NCBI GenBank assembly: GCA_038396605.1
Contig: CP121690.1
Coordinates: forward strand, 248,001-312,000
Length of the DNA stretch: 64,000 nt
Origin: Eubacteriales bacterium mix99
Lineage (GTDB): Bacteria > Bacillota > Clostridia > Caldicoprobacterales > DTU083
Direction of reading: 5' to 3'
The notes under the pieces were generated by a model that did no database searches, was not told the DNA's origin, and saw only the letters and a program-made list of their open reading frames with translations. This document shows positions 34,864-53,397 of this stretch, piece by piece; within the stretch, counting starts at the first letter, position 1, and every line of letters begins with the position of its first letter. Both the position numbers and the translations under genes were made by a program.

Positions 34864-35598
34864 TTGGCAAATCGATATGATGATAAGGTAATGTCTGTAA
34901 CAAAGGCACTATATATATTGGAAGAACTGATTGTTGACCCGGAAGGTTTGGGGCTTATTGATCTGAGCAACAGAGTCTCAATGAACAAAACTACAGTTTA
35001 CAGAATTCTGACTTCTTTAATGGAGAGAGATTTCGTAGAGCAAGACAATATAACCGGTAAATATAAACTTGGCATGAAAATATTAAGCCTTGCCCATACT
35101 TTTTATGATCGGCTTGATTTACGGGGATTGATTCGTCAATTTTTCGATACTTCGAATGAGGAAGAATCCATTGTCGTTGTGAAACCATACTCAAATAATT
35201 GTTCCCTGATAGATGTGATTGGAAACCAGGAAATGATCCGAAATTCAGACATAAATGATTGTCTGAAAAATTATATCTCAATAAAAGAAGTATATTACAC
35301 AAATTATTTGAAATGGAAAAATATTGATACCTTTTATATGGGAGATTTATCCAAACAAGATCAGAAGGAATTACGTCAGAAAATGAGGCTGATAGCCATT
35401 CAAGGTTACGATTATGTGGAGGCCGATTATAATGACTATCCTTCTCTGTGTATCCCCATCTATAATTATGCCAGAGAACTTGCCGCGATGGTTTGTCTTT
35501 TCTCTAAACAACTTCTGGATAAGAATTATTTATCTGAAAAAATATTGGAGTATACGGATAAGGGCAATTTGATTTCAAGAAACCTGGGGCTTCCATAA
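34864..35598 (+). CDS. IclR-family transcriptional regulator
   Basis: 244 residues. The N-terminal winged helix (KALYILEELIVDPEGLGLID, then LSNRVSMNKTTVYRILTSLM) is characteristic of IclR, followed by KYKLGMKILSLA. The C-terminal effector domain is diverged but ends with CIPIYNYARELAAMVCLF. The start is TTG at 34864; ATG 34891 is possible. A TATAAT lies at 34839-34844. It converges on module A (HExxH, HyuA-like, permease, FAD oxidoreductase), whose promoter carries a palindrome suited to an IclR dimer. It is the likely repressor of that module. Confidence 0.88.
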   Translation: MANRYDDKVMSVTKALYILEELIVDPEGLGLIDLSNRVSMNKTTVYRILTSLMERDFVEQDNITGKYKLGMKILSLAHTFYDRLDLRGLIRQFFDTSNEEESIVVVKPYSNNCSLIDVIGNQEMIRNSDINDCLKNYISIKEVYYTNYLKWKNIDTFYMGDLSKQDQKELRQKMRLIAIQGYDYVEADYNDYPSLCIPIYNYARELAAMVCLFSKQLLDKNYLSEKILEYTDKGNLISRNLGLP

Positions 35599-36182: not shown

Positions 36183-38330
36183 TCATCGCTTTCTGGTAAT
36201 CAAGATATAGTCCTCATTTTCATTCAACTCCGACAGCTCAACATCAATCAGCGACGTTACCTGCTCTATGTTCTCCAGACCGGACAAGTCCGAAACCTTC
36301 GCATTGACAATCAGATGGATCTCCGGCATGGTTTTGCCGGCCTCATCAAATTTCGTATCGCTTTCAATGCAGTTGATGAGCCCACTCTTATCCTTTTTCC
36401 CTAGGATATGGTAATTTGCATTTTCTATATTCAGTTTTATGACACCATTTCTATCAATCAGGCACAGCAGGCGGGACTTCTTTTTAAAGAAAAAAAGTTT
36501 GGGCTTGGTGGTGTAAGTTACTTCAAAAAGAGAATAGATGCCGTTTTCACTTACCTTGGAAACAGACAAATCTGAAAAATTGTCAAAGGATTTGTCTACA
36601 ATTTTTTGGATCTCCTCATCACTCAGTTTCTTCCCTGCTTTTTTCTGCGCGCTTAATTCTGTTGTTCCAACCGCTGTTGCCTTAACCACGTTTTTAGTGG
36701 CATCAATATCAATGGTAACTTCAATGGAGCCTGGAGAGGCACCGGATTCCATCGCTCTTTGCGCAGCATCTTTCCGGATTTCGAGAATATCATTTTGAGT
36801 CGGATTCACGATGGTTCGCTCCACCGAGTCTCTTACCATGGCAAGCGCGGCGCCAATGGTTGCGATGATAGGTGCATTATCTGCAATCTTGTATTTTAAT
36901 CCCATACTTTTGGCAAGTGCCGGCACAACAACACTCGCACCGCCGCCGCCACCATTTAGCTCTAAGTAATTCCGCGACAGGTTATATTGTTTTATAAACT
37001 CTTCCACTGCGGGTCTTACTTTCGAGACTGCGATTGCCATGATCTCCTCCTCTACTTTCTTTCCGCTTCTGTTAAAATAGCTTTCCAGAATTTCGGTTAT
37101 GCGGGCGACCACATCGTCCTGTGCTTTTGCATAGTCCTCCGCATCGATTAAGCCAAGAATGTTTGCAATACATGTTAAAGTAACCGCAAACTTCTTCCCT
37201 TCACTGTTTTCGATTGCCAGATAATTATCTGTATAATCCGCTGCTATTCTTACACTGGTAACGTGCGCATCCTTTAAATCCTTTAGATCAGCAAAGCAGG
37301 CATATTCAAGCCCCGCAATATGTGCACTTCTCGGCCCTACATCCTTAATCACCTTATCCGTGCATCGTATCATACTTCCGCCGGCAATGCCAACCGTATG
37401 AATATCCAATGAATTGACATAAGTCTTATGACCGCCAATTGTGGCATATTTGGTGATCACTTTGCCGTTCTGAATAGCAGAGATATCAGTGGACGTTCCT
37501 CCCACTTCAAGAAATATGCCATCTGATATTTTTTCATACATCAAAGCACCTGCCACCCCTGCTGCCGGACCGGATAATACCGTTAAAATAGGCCGCTTCT
37601 TGATCTCATCAATCTGCATGACCCCGCCATCCGATCTCATAATCATGAGAGGCGCCTTGATTTCAGCAGTTTTCACCGCATTGCCCGTCATCGTTGCCGT
37701 TTGAACCATTTTTGGCAGAATGGAACCGTTGATTACACTCGTTTTCGTCCTTGCTTTCAGCCCATACAATTTGGAAAGCTCATGTGTTGCAGTTGCCAAC
37801 AGACCTCTTTCCCTTACAAGACCTGCAACGTTCTTTTCATTATCCGGGTTATCAACAGAAAACGCTTCACTGATAACCGCGACTTCAACTCCTTCGTCTT
37901 TGAATCGGTCAACGATCCCATTTACCCTGTCCGTAAAATCCCCGGAAGAAGTATCGATAAACTCATATTCCGTGTTGATCTCTTTCCCATCTTCCAACGG
38001 TACATTGCCAAGCCGTGTATCATTTTTGATTTTGGAAACCCCGATTCCTGAGCCCATTCCAATGATTCCTATTTTGGCCACATCACCTTCCAGCAAAGCA
38101 TTTGTAGCCTGTGTTGTCCCGTGCGCAATAAAGACAACATCGCTGGGCTGATAACCAATTTCCTCCAGCAGAAGGTTTAATATTTTGATTACTCCACTGG
38201 CAACGCCTTCCCTTGCATTATGCGTCGTCGGAAGTTTATTCTGTGCAATTATCTCATAGGTATCATTATCAAGGGCAACAGCATCGGTAAAAGTCCCCCC
38301 AACATCGATGCCAATTCTTATTTTTCTCAT
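36183..38330 (-). CDS. HyuA-like hydantoinase/oxoprolinase family protein (module A)
   Basis: 715 residues with the ASKHA-type ATP-binding folds of HyuA: N-terminal GIDVGGTFTDAV, HGTTQATNALLEG, central MRSDGG, LSGPAAGVAG, VGGTSTDIS, and C-terminal LNGGGGGASVVVPALAKSMG. HyuA proteins use ATP to open lactam or hydantoin rings, normally with a HyuB subunit. No HyuB gene exists in this window. A C-terminal region of about 200 residues (from DILEIRKDAAQRAMESG) is shared with the module B paralogue and seems not to belong to canonical HyuA. It is co-oriented with a permease and FAD oxidoreductase upstream. The substrate is unknown. Confidence 0.85.
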   Translation of the reverse strand: MRKIRIGIDVGGTFTDAVALDNDTYEIIAQNKLPTTHNAREGVASGVIKILNLLLEEIGYQPSDVVFIAHGTTQATNALLEGDVAKIGIIGMGSGIGVSKIKNDTRLGNVPLEDGKEINTEYEFIDTSSGDFTDRVNGIVDRFKDEGVEVAVISEAFSVDNPDNEKNVAGLVRERGLLATATHELSKLYGLKARTKTSVINGSILPKMVQTATMTGNAVKTAEIKAPLMIMRSDGGVMQIDEIKKRPILTVLSGPAAGVAGALMYEKISDGIFLEVGGTSTDISAIQNGKVITKYATIGGHKTYVNSLDIHTVGIAGGSMIRCTDKVIKDVGPRSAHIAGLEYACFADLKDLKDAHVTSVRIAADYTDNYLAIENSEGKKFAVTLTCIANILGLIDAEDYAKAQDDVVARITEILESYFNRSGKKVEEEIMAIAVSKVRPAVEEFIKQYNLSRNYLELNGGGGGASVVVPALAKSMGLKYKIADNAPIIATIGAALAMVRDSVERTIVNPTQNDILEIRKDAAQRAMESGASPGSIEVTIDIDATKNVVKATAVGTTELSAQKKAGKKLSDEEIQKIVDKSFDNFSDLSVSKVSENGIYSLFEVTYTTKPKLFFFKKKSRLLCLIDRNGVIKLNIENANYHILGKKDKSGLINCIESDTKFDEAGKTMPEIHLIVNAKVSDLSGLENIEQVTSLIDVELSELNENEDYILITRKR

Positions 38331-38356: not shown

Positions 38357-39640
38357 TTACATAAACACGATAACGCCAACAATGACACCCATTAAGACGA
38401 CAAGGGCATCCACCAGGAAGGTACCGCGTGTGTACTTCCCGACCTTAAGCTGCAGATAGCCGCACGCCCAGGTAACCTGCGATGCTGTTGGGTCATTCAC
38501 TCCTACATAGTAATCATACAACCAGGCCAGACAAATAATCAGGCCAATTGGCAAAGCCGTATTTAATAAGATTCCGATTAATGCAGCTCCCAATCCCCAG
38601 GGATTCAGCGGACCACGATACATGGTAAGAAATGGACCAATGAGACCGAAGACCAGAATGATTGGCAACGCTTTGGTGGGGACTATGCCGGTCAACATTT
38701 TCTGCATGGGTGCCAGCAACGCTTCCTGTTTCGCAGCTGCCAATACCATGCCAATGCCCATCATGATCAGAATGGTCACCGCGACGTTTGCAAATCCGTC
38801 AAAGGAAGAACGATTGATTAAATCAAGGGAACCTTTAAATTTCTTCTTCCATCCCGTAGAAAGAATCGCGTAAATAATGCCGGCAATCAGAGCAGCATTC
38901 ACATTCCAATCGAACAAGAATACCGTGATCAACGGTATGATTGGAGCAATCACTGCATAAAGAGGAACATCGTCCTTGTCTTCCTTTTTCTTCTTCGGGT
39001 TTTTCGCAGCCCATGAAAACACCGGCCCGCTTACCTTAATTCCAACAATGATAAAGACGATGCTGACAATGATTGCGATAATTGCCAAAAAAACTGCCGT
39101 TTGTTTTATAAGAGGGTCCGTTGCATCCAGACCTGCCAGGCCGCCGATAAAGGCCCACCTGGATACATTAAAGAAATATCCCAATTGTGTGGAAGCCAGC
39201 ATCACAAAAGCAGCTATTACCTTAGGCACTCCAACGGATAGCATAATTGGAAAAACAATAATGCCAAGCATAATTTTTGCACCGACTCCATTTAAGCCGA
39301 CAAAGCAAAATCCGCAGGCGAAAAAGCAAAGAATAGCTATGAAATACGGATTGTCGCCGCCTAATTCAGCGGCAGTCCGAATGAGCTTTTCCGCAATTCC
39401 AGTCTTTTTTATGATTTCTCCCAAAACAGCTGCCACAAGGGTGGAGAATATCGCCTCTGACATTCCGCTTAGTCCAGTACCTACCACATCATTGATGATT
39501 GTTTTAAATGGAAGCCCAACGGCGCAGCAAAGCAATACGGCCATTAAAGGAAGAGCGACAACGGCATTAATTTTATCCGATACCATCAGCCCAACAATCA
39601 CAATAAATATAGCAAGGATTAAGATAATCTGTAAAGTCAT
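38357..39640 (-). CDS. Multispanning organic-anion permease (module A)
   Basis: 427 residues, about 11-12 hydrophobic helices, with an internal hydrophilic loop rich in Lys and Asp (KNPKKKKEDKDD). It has the look of the ion-transporter superfamily (GntP/DcuC/CitMHS-like), for example GGDNPYFIAILCFFACGFCF and MYRGPLNPWGLGAALIG. It likely imports an organic anion with a cation. A counterpart with the same GxNPxGxG-like re-entrant motif (FFRGPTNLVGCG) is encoded in module B. It lies between the FAD oxidoreductase and HyuA-like genes. Confidence 0.8.
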   Translation of the reverse strand: MTLQIILILAIFIVIVGLMVSDKINAVVALPLMAVLLCCAVGLPFKTIINDVVGTGLSGMSEAIFSTLVAAVLGEIIKKTGIAEKLIRTAAELGGDNPYFIAILCFFACGFCFVGLNGVGAKIMLGIIVFPIMLSVGVPKVIAAFVMLASTQLGYFFNVSRWAFIGGLAGLDATDPLIKQTAVFLAIIAIIVSIVFIIVGIKVSGPVFSWAAKNPKKKKEDKDDVPLYAVIAPIIPLITVFLFDWNVNAALIAGIIYAILSTGWKKKFKGSLDLINRSSFDGFANVAVTILIMMGIGMVLAAAKQEALLAPMQKMLTGIVPTKALPIILVFGLIGPFLTMYRGPLNPWGLGAALIGILLNTALPIGLIICLAWLYDYYVGVNDPTASQVTWACGYLQLKVGKYTRGTFLVDALVVLMGVIVGVIVFM

Positions 39641-39661: not shown

Positions 39662-41008
39662 CTAGTTGTAATTCAACACTTGCCCGTTATGAATAAGTGT
39701 TTCCTGTAATTTAGGAATACAAACATCTTTCGGATTTACTTCGTCTGCCACTGCCAGACCCGCTGCGGTTCCTGCAGCTTCACCCATGGCAAATACAGAC
39801 GGCATAATCCGGATTGCGCCAAGTGCTTCATGAGTCGCTGAGACACACTTTCCAGCCACAAGCAAATTGTCTATCTTTTGAGGCAATAGAATCCTGTAGG
39901 GAACCCTGTAAACATCAGCAACATTCGTATTCTCTTTTTTATAGCTTGTACCTGTCAGGGCACCTTTGGAAGGATGCAAATCAACGGGATAGCTACACAA
40001 TGAGATCGTATCATTATATTCAGTATTTTTAATCAGATCATTTTCTGTCAGCGTATATAAACCCTGGATTCTTCGGGACTCCCTTATTCCCACAATGGAG
40101 CCGGTCTGCGCAATTCTCGCGTTTTCCAGCCCCGGCAATCTTTTAAGGAAATCCATTAGGAACTGAACTTGTTTCATCCCTTCCAGATAAGCCTGATTCA
40201 TACTTTGCTGATCCGTTGGATCATAGCCTTGAAGTCGGGTGGTGTTCAGTCTCCACTCTCCTGACTTCACCATATGATATAATCCTATTTTGTTACGATT
40301 GATTTGAAATTCTCCATTTTCTCTGGCTTCTTCGATGATATCATGATAGGGTAAATATTTTGTTTCTTCCTTTTGGTTCAGGAATCTTACGATCTTGTCA
40401 TCGTCGGCATTATAAATCCAAAAAAACAATGTCATGGGCTGCAATTCATTCTCAACATCAGCAATAACACATGGAACCCCTGACTTACAGCTCAGCAGTG
40501 CATCTCCGGTAGCGTCTATAAAAACTTTTGCCGAATAGTTCACATAACGATTTCCATCATAAGCTTTTAATTCTTTAATGGTATTGTTTTCCACAGCCAC
40601 ATCGGTCAAAACAGTATTCAGATGAACTGTCACACCTGCTTCAGCAAGCAGCTCAGTTAAAACCATCTTTAAACATTCCGGCTCAAACGGAGTTACGTTG
40701 TTATGCCTTAATTTAATCCAGCAACCATATTCACTCACCATTCCGGTCTTTGAGGGATGTATCGCTCCCCCTCTCTTCTCCATCCTGCGAACAATTTCAT
40801 CAAAAATGCCCTTTATAATCTGATGTTTCCCTTTTGGATCAAAACATGTCATAAACGGTCCTACCAGGCCATTGGTCGCAGTACCTCCCACAACACCTGT
40901 CTTCTCTATCAACAATGTTTCAGCCCCGGATCTTGCAGAAGCAATCGCTGCCACAACACCTGCACAACCGCCTCCGACAATCACAACATCACCCGAAAAC
41001 CTGTCCAT
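39662..41008 (-). CDS. FAD-dependent oxidoreductase (FAD_oxidored family)
   Basis: 448 residues. N-terminal dinucleotide-binding motif VVIVGGGCAGVVAAIASARSG is followed by LIEKTGVVGGTATNGLVGPF, typical of the FAD_oxidored (PF12831-like) family. AKVFIDATGDALL and the C-terminal MPSVFAMGEAAGTAAGLA also match. These enzymes oxidise or reduce small organic acids or act with sugar-acid pathways; substrate unknown. It is the first gene of module A, with AAGGAGG about ten bases before the ATG and a promoter/operator upstream. Confidence 0.87.
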   Translation of the reverse strand: MDRFSGDVVIVGGGCAGVVAAIASARSGAETLLIEKTGVVGGTATNGLVGPFMTCFDPKGKHQIIKGIFDEIVRRMEKRGGAIHPSKTGMVSEYGCWIKLRHNNVTPFEPECLKMVLTELLAEAGVTVHLNTVLTDVAVENNTIKELKAYDGNRYVNYSAKVFIDATGDALLSCKSGVPCVIADVENELQPMTLFFWIYNADDDKIVRFLNQKEETKYLPYHDIIEEARENGEFQINRNKIGLYHMVKSGEWRLNTTRLQGYDPTDQQSMNQAYLEGMKQVQFLMDFLKRLPGLENARIAQTGSIVGIRESRRIQGLYTLTENDLIKNTEYNDTISLCSYPVDLHPSKGALTGTSYKKENTNVADVYRVPYRILLPQKIDNLLVAGKCVSATHEALGAIRIMPSVFAMGEAAGTAAGLAVADEVNPKDVCIPKLQETLIHNGQVLNYN

Positions 41009-43243: not shown

Positions 43244-44023
43244 TTACTCGGGTTGCCTGCCAATATAAGCGAGAATCCCGCCATCGACATAAAGAATATG
43301 ACCGTTGACAAAATCAGAGGCTGGCGAGGAAAGAAAGACAGCGGGGCCCACCAGGTCCTGTGGCGTACCCCAACGCGCCGCCGGAGTCCTGGAGATAATA
43401 AAGCTGTTGAAAGGATGTCCATCGGTACGCAGGGGAGCAGTCTGGGGCGTAGCAATATAACCCGGACCGATACCATTGCACTGAATGTTGTATTTACCGT
43501 ATTCTGAAGCAATGTTTTTGGTAAGCATTTTAAGGCCACCTTTGCCCGCCGCATACGCCGAAACGGTTTCCCGACCGAGTTCGCTCATCATCGAACAAAT
43601 GTTAATGATTTTACCGCCTCCCTTTTTGATCATAGCAGGAAGGACCGCCTTGGAGACAATGAATGGCGCATTCAGGTTCACGTCGACAACCTGTCGGAAT
43701 TCGGCTGCTGTCATATCACACATGGGGATTCGCTTAATGATTCCTGCGTTATTAAAAAGAATATCAATGATACCGACATCCTTCTCTATCTGCGATACCA
43801 TATCATTTACCTGCTCTTCGCTGGTCACATCACATACATATCCATGTACATCAATACCAGCTTGCCGGTATGCCTCGAGCCCTTTATCCACCCGATCCTG
43901 CCGGATATCGTTGAATACCAGCTTTGCACCCGCTTTTGCCAAACCGCTTGCGATTGCAAACCCGATTCCGTACGACCCTCCTGTCACCAAAGCTACTTTG
44001 CCATCCAATCGGAATGCATCCAT
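43244..44023 (-). CDS. kduD: SDR-family dehydrogenase, KduD/gluconate 5-dehydrogenase-like
   Basis: About 259 residues. Short-chain dehydrogenase with cofactor motif TGGSYGIGFAIA, NNAG, and catalytic Tyr/Lys in VSAYAAGKGGL. It is similar to 2-deoxy-D-gluconate 3-dehydrogenase KduD, which reduces 2,5-diketo-3-deoxygluconate to 2-keto-3-deoxygluconate. Placement directly after KduI supports that role over gluconate 5-dehydrogenase. ATG 44023 has GGGGAG about eight bases upstream; the longer frame is not supported. It is the last gene of module B before the terminator. Confidence 0.85.
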   Translation of the reverse strand: MDAFRLDGKVALVTGGSYGIGFAIASGLAKAGAKLVFNDIRQDRVDKGLEAYRQAGIDVHGYVCDVTSEEQVNDMVSQIEKDVGIIDILFNNAGIIKRIPMCDMTAAEFRQVVDVNLNAPFIVSKAVLPAMIKKGGGKIINICSMMSELGRETVSAYAAGKGGLKMLTKNIASEYGKYNIQCNGIGPGYIATPQTAPLRTDGHPFNSFIISRTPAARWGTPQDLVGPAVFLSSPASDFVNGHILYVDGGILAYIGRQPE

Positions 44024-44069: not shown

Positions 44070-44912
44070 TTAACGCAGATCCATATTGGCAATGCCATCC
44101 ATATCGTCAAACTCCTTATTTTCTCCGCACATTGCCCAGACAAAGGAATAGTTTGCGGTGCCGCATCCGGAATGAATCGACCAGGATGGATTGATTACTG
44201 CCTGCTCGTTGGTCATGACAATATGACGGGTTTCCTGAGGCTGCCCCATCAAATGAAACACAACATTGTCCTGTGGGATGTCAAAGTACATATACACCTC
44301 CATACGACGTTCGTGTGTATGAGCTGGCATCGTGTTCCAGACACTGCCCGGTTTGAGAATGGTGCAGCCCATTGACAGCTGGCAGGTCTCAAGCACATCG
44401 GGATGAATGAATTGGTTTATGGTGCGCTCATTTGCCGTTTCCGCTGCACCCTGATCCCGGTGGATTGCCATTTTAAAAGGAATATAGGTTGTAGGACAGG
44501 GCTTATGTGCGGGTACCGAACACATATAGAATTTAGGAGGATGATCAGGATTTTTTGCACCCAGGGTAACCTGGCGGGTACCCATTGACACGTACAATCC
44601 CTCTATATGCCCCAACTCAAACGTATCATCATCAGCTGTGACAATCCCATCGCCACCAATATTGATGATTCCAAGTTCGCGCCGTTCTAGAAAATAACGT
44701 ACACCGAAGTTTTTCCGACAGTCGATATTTTTTTCAATAGCCAGGGTTTCCCGCACTGGCATTGCTCCCATTACTACAATTCGGTCCACATGGGAATACA
44801 TGGCAGTTACGTCATCCGGGAGAAACAATTTTTCCATAAGAAATTCCTCCCGTAGTTCCTGGGTTGTGTACCGTTTAAAATCTTTTTGATTTGCGCTATA
44901 ACGAATATCCAT
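44070..44912 (-). CDS. kduI: 5-keto-4-deoxyuronate isomerase
   Basis: 280 residues, normal for KduI. Zinc-cupin ligands are visible in AHTHERRMEVYMYFD (two His and a Glu) and WSIHSGCGT (His). Other hallmarks are RYSANQKDFKRYTTQELREE and RYFLERRELGIINIGGDG. It converts 5-keto-4-deoxyuronate, from unsaturated uronate released by pectin or glycosaminoglycan lyases, to 2,5-diketo-3-deoxygluconate. AAGGAGG precedes ATG 44912. This identifies module B as connected to unsaturated uronate catabolism. Confidence 0.95.
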   Translation of the reverse strand: MDIRYSANQKDFKRYTTQELREEFLMEKLFLPDDVTAMYSHVDRIVVMGAMPVRETLAIEKNIDCRKNFGVRYFLERRELGIINIGGDGIVTADDDTFELGHIEGLYVSMGTRQVTLGAKNPDHPPKFYMCSVPAHKPCPTTYIPFKMAIHRDQGAAETANERTINQFIHPDVLETCQLSMGCTILKPGSVWNTMPAHTHERRMEVYMYFDIPQDNVVFHLMGQPQETRHIVMTNEQAVINPSWSIHSGCGTANYSFVWAMCGENKEFDDMDGIANMDLR

Positions 44913-44946
44913 TGATATACCTCCTTTTATCACTTTCCTGATTCCA

Positions 44947-45609
44947 TTATTCTGTAAAATAATTGGGATAAAGCCTGGGTAATCCCACAATATTCTCCTG
45001 CCCTTTGCTCAGGTGCTTGCTCAGTACTTTGCGCATTCCGTCTTCATCACGTTGTCTGGCAGCATACATAATCGCCTCATCATCCTGCAAAACTTTCGGA
45101 TCAAAGCCATAGTGCCTGAGTGACAAATAACGTAAACGACTGTAATGGGAATTGGAAGATTCAATTATTTTCCAGGCAAGACGCTGCCCTGCCGTCTCAA
45201 ACAGAATCCGTTGAAACCGATTTCCCATATCAAAAAACTCCCGGAACTTCTGACGCTCCATGGCACGATGCTGAATACCGATAACATTTTCCAACGTATC
45301 AACCACCAACGGACTGCAGTTTTTAATGAAGCTGTCAACCATGGACAATTCAAGGGAATTACAAATAAAGCGCTCTTCCTGAATACGGTCCATGCTGATA
45401 AGAGAAACAGCAGTGCGGGCTTGTGGGTAAATATGCACCAAATCCTCCTGCTGCAGTCGGACAACTGCCTCCCGTACCGGTGTACGGCTTGAGCCATAGG
45501 TATCTGCCAGTTTTTGCACACTGACGGCAAGTCCTGGTTCCAGTACAAGATACATGATGTCGTCTTTTATTTTCCGGTACACTCGGTCATTCAAAGTAAC
45601 ATTTGGCAT
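44947..45609 (-). CDS. GntR-family regulator (FadR/FCD type)
   Basis: 220 residues. An N-terminal winged helix (VYRKIKDDIMYLVLEPG, then LADTYGSSRTPVREAVVRLQ) precedes an all-helical FCD-type ligand domain (HRAMERQKFREFFDMGNRFQ). Its ATG overlaps the stop of the HExxH gene (TAATG). It sits inside the operon it probably represses; twin palindromes overlap the operon promoter at 50131-50164. The ligand may be a uronate-derived keto acid. Confidence 0.9.
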   Translation of the reverse strand: MPNVTLNDRVYRKIKDDIMYLVLEPGLAVSVQKLADTYGSSRTPVREAVVRLQQEDLVHIYPQARTAVSLISMDRIQEERFICNSLELSMVDSFIKNCSPLVVDTLENVIGIQHRAMERQKFREFFDMGNRFQRILFETAGQRLAWKIIESSNSHYSRLRYLSLRHYGFDPKVLQDDEAIMYAARQRDEDGMRKVLSKHLSKGQENIVGLPRLYPNYFTE

Positions 45610-46319
45610 TAATTGGTTTCCACTTTCTCTTGAATTTTTGCGCTGGACAGAATCTCCATCACATCCGCATAAATACTTCTGGCACCCATCGGATTACGGC
45701 CGAAAAATAACAGCACATCCAGTATGAAAGGATTGCAATCTATTTTGGTGAACGTCCTTGCAAAGCTCATGGACGCAATTTCACTGACAGCACGAATAGT
45801 AGAATCATTTTTAAAACACAAAACCTTCCATAAACGGATCGTCTCATTACGTGTATAAATATCGCCGGCATGAACCTCCTCCACGTAATGGAAAATCTCA
45901 TGTGCCAGCAACAGCGCACGCACTTCCCCGGGTGTTGGAAAGAGTACAGCCCGCTTATTGGCTGTCTGTTTCTGATAAAGATCGGCGTAAGCATCCAGCG
46001 TATCACTCATAATCTCAATACGTTTGTCCGGCACGAACTGTGCAAACACCACTCTCCCCCCGGTCATGGACCGGTCACTCTCCACTGCCTCCAGATCCAA
46101 ATCCCTTGCCAACGTAAAAGGGTCGGATGTACCAGTTCGTGCCCGCATTTGCTCAGCCCACTGTGCGCCACAGTCAAAGGACTTGCGAATCATCTCATCC
46201 CGCCCTTCCGGAGTGACACGATCCCGCAGGATATCACGTGAAAAAGCATAGCGGCCCCAGGTCATATCATCCACAGTACGCATGTTTCGCATCATCGTCT
46301 CCAACGTTATTTCTTCCAT
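45609..46319 (-). CDS. HExxH protein of module B, M78/ImmA-like
   Basis: 236 residues, soluble. AHEIFHYVEE gives HExxH (His140, Glu141, His144), and 36 residues later VSEIASMSFARTF supplies Glu180 in an ExxAxxFA context. This is the same pattern as the module A protein at 35627-36172, although the rest is poorly conserved and this copy has a longer N-terminus. Its stop codon overlaps the GntR start, so protease-like protein and repressor are made from coupled cistrons, as in ImmA/ImmR pairs. Regulated cleavage of the repressor is an attractive but untested reading. Confidence 0.65.
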   Translation of the reverse strand: MEEITLETMMRNMRTVDDMTWGRYAFSRDILRDRVTPEGRDEMIRKSFDCGAQWAEQMRARTGTSDPFTLARDLDLEAVESDRSMTGGRVVFAQFVPDKRIEIMSDTLDAYADLYQKQTANKRAVLFPTPGEVRALLLAHEIFHYVEEVHAGDIYTRNETIRLWKVLCFKNDSTIRAVSEIASMSFARTFTKIDCNPFILDVLLFFGRNPMGARSIYADVMEILSSAKIQEKVETN

Positions 46320-48674: not shown

Positions 48675-50021
48675 CTAGACCAGATTACCATACAGGAAGA
48701 ATGCCACAAAGCATAGGATTGCCCCGGCAATCCATCCGGTGGGAATCGAGTATTTCATAAAATCCCGGGAGCTTACCTTGGAATATCCAAGGCCCCAGGC
48801 TACCCAGGACTGCGTGATATCAAGATGCTGCGGCACAATGGTCGTAACGGCAAACAGCGGATAAATAAAGGCAACGGGCCATTTTGCCAGGGACAGCACC
48901 ACCGCTGCAATCGCGGTTCCACAACCTACAAGGTTGGTCGGACCACGGAAGAACCCCAATGGGACCAATACCGCAAACAAAGCAGCAATCCCAAACGCAG
49001 TGGTTGGGAAAATACCACCGATAACCGCCTTAAAATAAGGTGCTGCATAAGTGGCTGCATTGTTGAACATGGCAAGTGTCAGCAGAAAACCAATCATCGG
49101 AGCCACATCCACTGCACCGTCGGCAAACTGTTTGGCCAGCATACGGCAAATCCCGGAGAATTTCTGCCTTAATTTGCCACAGGTAAGCAGGGCATACAAA
49201 GCGGACGCAATAAAAGCAAGAATAATCGGGCACTTCGTGGTTACCACCAGAACGACCGGAAGAATGACCGATATCCAGGAATACCACGGGGCGGTTTCCT
49301 CTTTTCCATTGGATGAAACCGCAGCCCAGGCATGGGTGACTTTCTCTTTGTTCAGAGCCAGGCTGGCAACAATCAGTACCACTATCAGGCAGACAACCAT
49401 GGCAATTGCGCCAAAAAGAAAGTAAGCGTTGTAATCATACTGCTGGAGGAAAGCCGGCTCAATACCACCCAGTATTCCCTGATACTGAGTAAAATTTGTG
49501 ATATTAGCGCAGATTCCGGCCATAATAGAGCCCATAAAAGCAAACAGCGCAATAGCAGAGGGAATACCCAATGCCTGCAGAATCGGCATTACAATTACTG
49601 CAATGGAAATAACCGGCCCAATACCGGTCATGGACGTAAAGCAAAGGGAAGTGACGATGCAAAGCAGGACCATGGTAATACGAGGCCTGTCGCCGCCCAA
49701 CTCCACAACCTTGCGGATCAAGGTAGCGGCGATTCCGGTATCTACCAGCACACGACCAAAGAAGGCACCAAAAAATATATTAACTAAAATCGAACTTGCA
49801 TAACCTTCCGGACCGGTCTGGTATACATTTTTAAGTACACTGAGCAGATTCTCATCCTCCATGGCGGGACTGGGACTTATGGCATTGCCAATCAGGGCCA
49901 TAACTGTCCATATCGTAGCCATTGTAAAAAAGCCTACCATCAGGTTATGGCCCTTGACACAGTAGATAATCATGCCAATAAAGGTCAGGATCATCAAAAT
50001 ACCGATGATAATTTCTGCCAT
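48675..50021 (-). CDS. Multispanning organic-anion permease (module B)
   Basis: About 448 residues, 11-12 hydrophobic helices, starting at ATG 50021 (GGAGG ten bases upstream). It resembles ion-transporter superfamily members (GntP/DcuC-like) with VVELGGDRPRITMVLLCIVT and PLGFFRGPTNLVGCGTAIAA. It corresponds to the module A permease in layout (RKVVELGGDRP versus RTAAELGGDNP). It is the first gene of the operon with HyuA-like, HExxH, GntR, KduI and KduD genes, so its cargo is probably an acidic sugar derivative. Confidence 0.8.
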   Translation of the reverse strand: MAEIIIGILMILTFIGMIIYCVKGHNLMVGFFTMATIWTVMALIGNAISPSPAMEDENLLSVLKNVYQTGPEGYASSILVNIFFGAFFGRVLVDTGIAATLIRKVVELGGDRPRITMVLLCIVTSLCFTSMTGIGPVISIAVIVMPILQALGIPSAIALFAFMGSIMAGICANITNFTQYQGILGGIEPAFLQQYDYNAYFLFGAIAMVVCLIVVLIVASLALNKEKVTHAWAAVSSNGKEETAPWYSWISVILPVVLVVTTKCPIILAFIASALYALLTCGKLRQKFSGICRMLAKQFADGAVDVAPMIGFLLTLAMFNNAATYAAPYFKAVIGGIFPTTAFGIAALFAVLVPLGFFRGPTNLVGCGTAIAAVVLSLAKWPVAFIYPLFAVTTIVPQHLDITQSWVAWGLGYSKVSSRDFMKYSIPTGWIAGAILCFVAFFLYGNLV

Positions 50022-50130
50022 TTTTGATCTACCTCCAATCAAAATCTTCGGATATAAGAAACCAGTTGTCTTAAAAACATCTGCTGAATGTTGGAACTGC
50101 CAAACGATGAAAAGTTGTGCGCGCACGAGC

Positions 50131-50186
50131 AACTGACATGTTAGTTGCTTCACTAACATGTTAGCATCTAAATAAATATTTGTCAA
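50131..50186 (-). promoter_or_regulatory. Module B promoter with two GntR-type operators
   Basis: Minus-strand TTGACA (50181-50186) and TAACAT (50158-50163) are 17 bp apart. The -10 lies inside the perfect palindrome CTAACATGTTAG (50153-50164). A second near-perfect copy, AACTGACATGTTAGTT (50131-50146), is centred exactly 20 bp downstream, two helical turns away. Both share the core ACATGT. Confidence 0.75.
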
Positions 50187-50559: not shown

Positions 50560-53397
50560 CTATGCTCCTCCGGAAATCTCCAGACTATGGGTACCGGATC
50601 CCAGCGAAACCATGAGATAGTCCCCGGTTCTGGAAGCTTCCACAGCTTGTCCATCCACAAGGAAGGATGAGCCGGCCCGATCCCCTGCCGGCAGGGAAAC
50701 TTTTGCTTCCGTGTTCACCGGAATGGTTACTTTTGCAGCCAGCCCGTCCTTTTTCTGCCTGTAGGAAACCAGAATCGGTCCTTTTACGCCTGGCGCCTTT
50801 ACCTTGGCTGATGGGATGCCGCCCGGCTGCAGCCTGATGGCAAACTTGTTAAATCCGGGGGTGATTGGAGCAATGCCGAACATGCCCTGCACAATGGCGC
50901 CTCCAGGAGATGAGCCCCAGGGATGAGACAGGGTCATGGCGGTTTTTTGCTTTTCTCCCCATGCCTCCGGGGTAATGGTCGCCTGTAAGTTATCCAGAAC
51001 GGAAGCAAAAGTTTTGACGCCTTCCCCAACCTCAGGGTTGGTTAAAAGCTCCATTGCCTTCGTGCCGTTATTGGAAGAATATAAGCCTCTCAGGATGAAA
51101 TAGGACATATAAATACTTCCTTTAAACTTCCCGTCGTTCCAGACATAGTCCGCCAGCCGGTCCGCCATTTCCTGAGAATCAAACACACCGTAAGCCAGTG
51201 CATATACAGACGGATAGACAGAGCAGTCTTCCGTTCGGACAGGCGTTCCATCAGCATTGAGGGAATCATAAAATTTTCCTTCCTGTTCATGATACATTTT
51301 ACGGATCATGTTTACCCGGACCGTATCTGACAGGCCCTCGTATTTTTGCGCATCCGTCTCATGCCCGGTCACAGTCGCGATTTTGGAAAGGATAGAATAA
51401 ATCCCAACGCATTCTGCATTCCATGGGGTATTGTAAACACCTTTCATAAACCCATCGCATGTACTGTTATCATAATCAATCAGGCCATTCCCGGTTACCA
51501 GACCCATTTCTTTCTGAAACGTTAGGATCTCTGCTTTCTTTACCAGTATGTCATAATTTTCCTTAAGGAAGTCCGGATTCCCTGTGTACAGATAATCCTG
51601 CCACGCTGCTTCTATGGAAAATAGTTTATAATCATCCGGCCAAATCTCATGATCCAGCAGATATCGGCTGGTATGCCGGGCAAGGGTATAATGATCGGAA
51701 ACCGCATAACTCGTATTGGACTGGACCAATAAGTCCCCTTCATAGGCACGTCTCTCCCGGGCCTGCGAATCCGTGTACAGATCCTGATTGGTGGCTTCCA
51801 TCGTGTACTTGCTGAGCTCATAGATACGATTCAGCAAAGCTGAAGCGTCCGTGCCGTCCGTTGCCTGAAAGCAGGAGGCATCCCGGTCAAAAGGCTGATG
51901 CATTGCCCGGCCCATAATTCCATTTTTCTCAATGGTTCCCCTGAACCCAATGATTTCAATATAGCGAAAGTTCTTCATGGTAACGGTTTCAAAAGAATTC
52001 AATCCCTGCTTCAATGTCCAGGTTTCTTCATATATCGGCCCTGCCAGCAATTCGTAGCGAACCGTACCATCTTCATTTCTCTGCTCACCCATACGAACCG
52101 TGATTCGCTGTTCTTTGGGACTGTTCAGGTTGACTTTCAACCCGCCGATAATTTCCTTGCCCAGATCGATCAGAATGCCATTTCTGTTTTGGGATACGGA
52201 CTTTGCTGGTTCGTTCACAAGGGTGCGGATCGTGTTTTCCGAAGGATAGGGAGTCAGAACACGGCCGGTTTTCCCGCGGACCGCATCCGCAACCGGCTTC
52301 CCCCGATCTGCCTTTCCCCATAAGCTGTCATCAAAGTTCACTGTATTCCAGCCTGCCGGATAGCGTCGGACATCCATATCCTCTGCCGGCATTTGAAAAT
52401 AGGACGTTCCTATGGTGCGTCCGGACCTGCCGAAAGCAGCCGTCCCGTCCAGTGCCTTCCAGTTTGAATCCTCCGTACCGCTGTTGGTCAGCACCTCCTT
52501 GCTGCCATCTGTATAAAATACCGTCAATTGCGTCAGAAATCCACGTTTCGAGCGGTCCCTGCCATAGGCAACTGCACTGATTACGTTGTCACTGCCTTCC
52601 TTCCACAGATCCGTGACATCAAAGGAATTATAGTAGGCCTGCGTATAATCTGATGAGCCGCCGTACTTCCCCACATTGCCAAAGTCCCGTGCAGGGCCTG
52701 TACCGACAGACTGCCCATTCACATACAAATCAAATATCTGGGATTTTTCCGACTCGGTATTCCGGGCCGCAGCACTCAAAATTGCTTTTTCCACTGCTTT
52801 ATTCCCTGTACTCTTCAGCCGGGGACTGCGAAAGAACACAAAATTTCCGGATACTGGTTTTGCCAGGTCCCCGCTTTTCCTGGTATTTATATCATTTATG
52901 CCATTTATGTCTTTCCCAAATGGTGTATCTTTCCAGATATCGCTCAGACTCTTCCATCCGGATCCAATATCAGTCATAAAGGGCTGCGGCCTGGAGAAAG
53001 GGCTTTTGGCACCATTCCTGTCTTTTGTCTGTACCTGCCAATAGTACAGTTCATTATCCATCAATTTGCTTTCCAGGCCACTGACATGAACATAGGAACT
53101 CTCATCGGAAGAAATCCAATGGGTATCCAGAATATATTCCCTGCTTTCTCCCTGTTTCAGGGAATCGAATACAACAATACGATAAGCGGTCTGCACTTCG
53201 TTCGCATCCAAATCGTTTACAATCCATGAAAGCGCAGGATTTTTGGTGGAAAGTCCGTAAGCATTCTCCAGCATTTCTGTCCGCAGTCCGGATGGTTCGC
53301 GGGGCGGCGTATTTTCTTCCGATGAAGTTAAAATCCCAGTGCCAAATAAAGTAAACAGGATCAGAACCAATGCCAGAATCAAAGATAATCTTTTCAT
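50560..53397 (-). CDS. Secreted GH78 alpha-L-rhamnosidase
   Basis: 945 residues. A signal peptide (MKRLSLILALVLILFTLFG...) is followed by a fibronectin-like N-terminal domain (TAYRIVVFDS, YYWQVQTKD) and an alpha-L-rhamnosidase N domain (FDLYVNGQSVGTGPARDFGN). The GH78 alpha/alpha barrel carries the acidic motif DSQARERRAYEGDLL, and the C-terminal beta domain contains SHPWGSSPGGAIVQGMFGI. It would release rhamnose from rhamnogalacturonan or other glycans, in keeping with the KduI/KduD genes beside it. No good Shine-Dalgarno sequence is seen directly before the ATG. It may be transcribed from the element at 53526-53578. Confidence 0.92.
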   Translation of the reverse strand: MKRLSLILALVLILFTLFGTGILTSSEENTPPREPSGLRTEMLENAYGLSTKNPALSWIVNDLDANEVQTAYRIVVFDSLKQGESREYILDTHWISSDESSYVHVSGLESKLMDNELYYWQVQTKDRNGAKSPFSRPQPFMTDIGSGWKSLSDIWKDTPFGKDINGINDINTRKSGDLAKPVSGNFVFFRSPRLKSTGNKAVEKAILSAAARNTESEKSQIFDLYVNGQSVGTGPARDFGNVGKYGGSSDYTQAYYNSFDVTDLWKEGSDNVISAVAYGRDRSKRGFLTQLTVFYTDGSKEVLTNSGTEDSNWKALDGTAAFGRSGRTIGTSYFQMPAEDMDVRRYPAGWNTVNFDDSLWGKADRGKPVADAVRGKTGRVLTPYPSENTIRTLVNEPAKSVSQNRNGILIDLGKEIIGGLKVNLNSPKEQRITVRMGEQRNEDGTVRYELLAGPIYEETWTLKQGLNSFETVTMKNFRYIEIIGFRGTIEKNGIMGRAMHQPFDRDASCFQATDGTDASALLNRIYELSKYTMEATNQDLYTDSQARERRAYEGDLLVQSNTSYAVSDHYTLARHTSRYLLDHEIWPDDYKLFSIEAAWQDYLYTGNPDFLKENYDILVKKAEILTFQKEMGLVTGNGLIDYDNSTCDGFMKGVYNTPWNAECVGIYSILSKIATVTGHETDAQKYEGLSDTVRVNMIRKMYHEQEGKFYDSLNADGTPVRTEDCSVYPSVYALAYGVFDSQEMADRLADYVWNDGKFKGSIYMSYFILRGLYSSNNGTKAMELLTNPEVGEGVKTFASVLDNLQATITPEAWGEKQKTAMTLSHPWGSSPGGAIVQGMFGIAPITPGFNKFAIRLQPGGIPSAKVKAPGVKGPILVSYRQKKDGLAAKVTIPVNTEAKVSLPAGDRAGSSFLVDGQAVEASRTGDYLMVSLGSGTHSLEISGGA

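Follow-up and report, generated by a model that had tools for sequence, protein, structure and literature searches.

Two proteins encoded in the window, the whole stretch of 64,000 nucleotides analysed here, belong to a family of M78-like zinc proteins that is tied genomically to a clade of HyuA-type ATPases lacking HyuB. This new family, represented here by HExxH-A and HExxH-B, is probably dedicated to a cassette in which a permease and the HyuB-less HyuA act on substrates of the sugar-acid type. That judgement concerns the partnership with the cassette and not the further step in which the zinc protein would take the place of HyuB. We infer that the partner or target of the family is HyuA or the permease and not a repressor. 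The initial annotation had proposed that both proteins are ImmA-like proteases coupled to neighbouring repressors; the evidence supports an M78-like fold and zinc site but not the coupling to a repressor.

Gene organisation of the two modules

The two genes lie in clusters referred to as modules A and B (Table 1). A HyuA paralogue is found directly upstream of each, at a distance of 10 bases in module A and 73 bases in module B, and a third HExxH copy, at another site in the genome, likewise directly follows a HyuA. No Hydant_A_C domain was detected by Pfam in HyuA-B, and a search for HyuB found none nearby. The type of permease present in module B is retained upstream of HyuA and HExxH in relatives.

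The regulators are arranged differently in the two modules, much as the initial annotation had described. On the minus strand of module B, the stop codon of HExxH-B (TAA) and the start codon of the GntR gene (ATG) have one base in common, forming the TAATG overlap within ...ACCAATTAATGCC... In module A, HExxH-A converges on the IclR gene from the opposite strand across a gap of 28 bases, and the two therefore cannot lie on one common transcript. Upstream of module B is a gene for a large alpha-L-rhamnosidase-like protein (positions 50560-53397, minus strand; match below the NCBIfam cut-off), which suggests the use of pectin-type glycans.

Table 1. Genes in and around modules A and B, with window positions and the basis of each assignment.
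Feature	Position	Strand	Basis
IclR-type regulator, module A	34864-35598	+	Pfam HTH_IclR, E 1e-11
HExxH-A, M78-like zinc protein, 181 aa	35627-36172	-	HELFH 113-117, Glu152
HyuA-A, HyuA-type ATPase	36183-38330	-	Pfam
Permease, DcuC-like, module A	38357-39640	-	NCBIfam DcuC_1, E 5e-12, below cut-off; synteny
FAD-dependent oxidoreductase, module A	39662-41008	-	Pfam FAD_oxidored, E 7e-114
SDR, gluconate 5-dehydrogenase / KduD-like	43244-44023	-	NCBIfam NF005488, E 1e-145, above cut-off
KduI, 5-dehydro-4-deoxy-D-glucuronate isomerase	44070-44915	-	NCBIfam NF002091, E 2e-125, above cut-off
GntR/FCD regulator, module B	44947-45609	-	Pfam GntR, E 1e-14; FCD, E 9e-14
HExxH-B, M78-like zinc protein, 236 aa	45609-46319	-	HEIFH 140-144, Glu180
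HyuA-B, HyuA-type ASKHA ATPase, about 714 aa	46393-48537	-	Pfam Hydant_A_N and Hydantoinase_A
Permease, CitMHS-like, module B	48675-50186	-	Pfam, E 9e-5, weak, below cut-off

An invariant zinc site in a divergent family

The HExxH motif occurs three times in the window (57,211 residues in open frames of at least 60 amino acids), and only in HExxH-A and HExxH-B is it followed, 20-45 residues later, by E[IV][AG]xxxF. The downstream glutamate is located 36 residues past the last histidine of the motif in HExxH-B and 35 residues past the motif in HExxH-A, within the sequence SEIA..(S/A)FA, as had been noted. The two proteins are 22% identical and homologous (pairwise BLASTP E 6e-8). A single-sequence scan of genome contigs returned only one further genome (L003), and whole-genome profile searches were needed to assemble an alignment of 28 homologues. 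Both histidines, the catalytic glutamate, the downstream glutamate and one phenylalanine (H140, E141, H144, E180 and F186 of HExxH-B) are invariant in all 28. Because the two proteins are homologous and these residues are fixed throughout the alignment, a chance origin of the motif is excluded. There is little conservation beyond the zinc site, and the median pairwise identity of 22%, against 46% for HyuA and 33% for the permease, indicates that HExxH diverges faster than its partners.

Relationship to the M78 peptidases

No model in Pfam, NCBIfam or PHROG covers the family, and the Pfam model for M78 (PF06114) matches none of the 28 members; a metallo-protease family of PHROG matches three of them, with a best E of 4e-6. 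Searching the PDB sequences with the family profile gave no meaningful match, and a scan of IMG/VR gave no relatives. The family was also compared with a profile of M78 peptidases drawn from genomes in the same class as that of the window. With hhalign, this comparison returned a probability of 97.1%, a pairwise E of 6e-11 and a score of 70.3, whereas shuffled controls that kept the HExxH and ExxAxxFA columns reached a mean score of 37 and a maximum of 49.8 in 30 trials, and full shuffles scored about 11.

AlphaFold models were obtained with a pLDDT of 84 and a pTM of 0.85 for HExxH-B, and a pLDDT of 78 and a pTM of 0.81 for HExxH-A. Foldseek matches to these models, every one of which carries an E-value above 0.001, include for HExxH-B a viral IrrE protein (probability 1.00, TM 0.54 on the target) and, top-ranked against the PDB, PprI at a weak probability of about 0.6. 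Those for HExxH-A include PprI (8sln, probability 1.00) and IrrE (3dte, probability 0.99, rmsd 3.7), together with minimal gluzincins. The initial annotation had proposed such a comparison and had named a model lacking an M78 zinc site as the contrary outcome, which was not found.

The invariant HExxH...E, the profile-profile similarity and the predicted structures thus support an M78-like fold and zinc site, and we conclude that HExxH-A and HExxH-B are distant M78-like relatives rather than M78 members in the Pfam sense. Like the M78 proteins (ImmA/IrrE, COG2856, PF06114), they combine HExxH with a downstream helix glutamate in E-x-x-A/S-x-x-F-A. In contrast, the span from motif to glutamate, 35-36 residues in the window pair, mostly exceeds the spans found in the M78 comparison set, and a hairpin is predicted between the two elements in the model of HExxH-B. 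The family is also partnered by HyuA and a permease, and no adjacent or fused XRE regulator was seen.

A conserved permease and HyuA cassette

Across 29 HExxH loci, a HyuA gene on the same strand is part of the cluster in 26, a permease in 25 and an FAD oxidoreductase in about 16. HExxH is directly downstream of HyuA in 19 of the 29, and 16 of these 19 have a gap of no more than 40 bases. It comes after a permease instead of HyuA at L060 and L061, and in the L003 genome both HExxH genes likewise come after permeases. A HyuA of that genome, 69% identical to HyuA-B, is located elsewhere, alongside UxuA and what reads from its sequence as a putative LacI-like regulator in a uronate cluster.

Genes neighbouring the cassette encode KduI, KduD-like SDR proteins, UxuA, mannitol and fructuronate dehydrogenases, PfkB kinases, KdgT and glycerate kinase, and on account of these the substrates are likely to be sugar acids or their derivatives. 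At L060 and L061, the cassette is part of a larger cluster with genes for KDPG aldolase-like and PfkB-like proteins, an aldehyde dehydrogenase, a PLP enzyme, an RraA-like protein and an amidohydrolase. A protein of about 225-240 amino acids (MTLIVSLPKNTVEFAEAAVKGGANALKVHANV...) recurs beside the cassette, at L054 (1616-2293, plus strand), L051, L055, L058, L060-L062 and L149-L154; it has no match in Pfam (E up to 0.001) or NCBIfam and looks like a TIM-barrel enzyme. A DUF4127 protein is encoded inside the cassette at two loci (L062, 3383-4882, and L151).

The HExxH frame is broken, at different places, in three relatives: L146 (genome G489), L147 (G501) and L148 (G282). Two of the three breaks fall inside a run of A, and the HyuA genes of the same clusters are free of stops; in G489, a ROK gene is split as well. 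Sequencing or assembly error, decay and slippage are all possible origins of these breaks.

Co-occurrence with HyuA

Whole-genome profile searches of 398 genomes of the phylum found the HyuA clade in 22, of which 20 also have the HExxH family (Fisher 9e-32, a value computed over related genomes that are not independent). Outside the genomes with the HyuA clade, the family is found in none once five weak matches are set aside, a step taken after the data had been seen (G043, G064, G291, G355 and G418). The sequences behind the weak matches in G043, G064, G355 and G418 were considered as family members and rejected: L063 and L065 resemble common M78 proteins, the match of L064 to the refined profile is marginal (E 0.003), and L066 does not match it. 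In a second sample of 37 genomes from one class, to which the refined profile was applied at E 1e-6 and without pruning, HExxH and the HyuA clade were found in the identical 11 genomes; four positives are common to both samples. The pair is patchily distributed within genera of this class.

Two genomes have the permease and HyuA without HExxH. In one of these, G058, HyuA is at a contig end. The other is G347, and HyuA can therefore apparently work without HExxH.

HyuA without HyuB

Hydantoinases and oxoprolinases are alpha-beta complexes (PMC5214803). In caprolactamase the HyuA subunit, CapA, binds ATP and presumably phosphorylates the substrate, and the HyuB subunit, CapB, carries a metal site, modelled as zinc, that is required for activity (PMC8453981). 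The cassette HyuA shares with the HyuA/HyuB hydrolases and carboxylases (hydantoinase, 5-oxoprolinase, caprolactamase, and acetone and acetophenone carboxylase) the Hydant_A_N and Hydantoinase_A domains and the phosphate motifs, with the ATP/phosphate motifs kept in 27 HyuAs, and it too has a metal protein as gene neighbour. It differs in that this metal protein is M78-like, in that Hydant_A_C is absent from all seven cassette-type HyuAs examined, whereas a HyuB-paired HyuA used as a control has it, and in the absence of HyuB. HyuB (PF02538) was not found in 22 of 23 cassette genomes, the source genome included, and in the single exception it is about 1.08 Mb from the cassette. Among the papers searched, none links ImmA/IrrE with hydantoinase or oxoprolinase.

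Possible functions of the zinc protein

In the leading mechanism, whose chances we put a little short of even, HExxH replaces the hydrolytic site of HyuB. The cassette consists of the permease and the HyuA-type ATPase, in places with the FAD oxidoreductase, and HExxH is probably a standing part of it in the use of sugar-acid-type substrates. In this mechanism, HyuA would activate the imported substrate by ATP-dependent phosphorylation, and the zinc protein would supply the metal-dependent hydrolysis step, the part played by HyuB in the known HyuA/HyuB enzymes. The absence of HyuB, the tight co-occurrence and the invariant zinc site support such a replacement. It is weakened by the rapid divergence of HExxH relative to HyuA, by the occurrence of HyuA without HExxH in G347, and by the loci in which a permease precedes HExxH (L003, L060 and L061). 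For an enzyme whose substrate is small and defined, conservation limited to the zinc site would also be unusual. The fuller proposal, that an unrelated M78-like zinc protein has replaced the metal subunit to give a new two-component, ATP-dependent hydrolase of sugar-acid derivatives, is more doubtful.

To our knowledge, all characterised M78 proteins act on proteins, which also counts against the leading mechanism. HExxH may instead be a regulatory or processing protease of the cassette, a reading we consider rather unlikely. In the presence of substrate it would cleave or bind one of three proteins, HyuA, the permease or the FAD oxidoreductase, and so set its activity or turnover. Fast divergence around a fixed zinc site is consistent with it, and the genomes lacking HExxH suggest an accessory role. 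Known M78 relatives are proteases of specific partner proteins, those partners being of the XRE-type HTH class (PMC2701414, PMC7907104). Against a protease of the cassette, neither a cleavage site nor a target is visible in the sequence, and a target that is neither HyuA nor the permease would need to differ between loci.

It is quite improbable that HExxH is a non-catalytic metabolite sensor or assembly factor, perhaps in the manner of the M. tuberculosis transcriptional regulator (6cyy/6cz6) that is matched by the model of HExxH-A at Foldseek probabilities of 0.63-0.93. The full zinc and catalytic set of HExxH...E is invariant across the homologues, which suggests that catalysis has been kept.

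The initial annotation had suggested that HExxH may be an anti-repressor, triggered by a ligand, which cleaves the GntR or IclR protein encoded next to it, as ImmA cleaves ImmR. Besides the M78-like fold and zinc site, the overlap with GntR in module B fits this idea. A regulator is directly downstream of HExxH at five of the 29 loci, namely module B, L052 (also FCD) and L043-L045 (UTRA). The regulators near the 29 loci include a convergent IclR (1), GntR-FCD (2), GntR-UTRA (4), ROK (5), RpiR (2) and PrpR/sigma-54 types (2), and at the remaining loci none was found; the three copies in the source genome lie beside IclR, GntR-FCD and RpiR, respectively. As a general function, one family would thus need at least six unrelated regulator targets, while HyuA and the permease stay constant and the presence of HExxH tracks the HyuA clade and not any regulator. 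Module A, moreover, is convergent and not an operon. Although ImmA-ImmR, IrrE-DdrO and Rir-Crh likewise involve a distantly related zinc protein, those systems target XRE repressors (without cleavage in the case of Rir), whereas the HExxH cassettes have diverse regulators, with no XRE type seen among them; no XRE family with at least two matches is among the best 25 families listed for 98 cassette neighbours. Since HExxH travels with HyuA and a transporter and not with one type of repressor, destruction of a neighbouring repressor is very unlikely. A repressor role local to some clusters is possible, as GntR is directly downstream in the five loci named above.

Implications

The M78-type proteins described to date are switches that inactivate XRE repressors. 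The HExxH family, which is without any curated model, tracks the HyuB-less HyuA clade almost perfectly, and this suggests that the M78-like fold serves in catabolism as well. A further question is how a HyuA ATPase works without HyuB, and whether a zinc protein may stand in HyuB's place.
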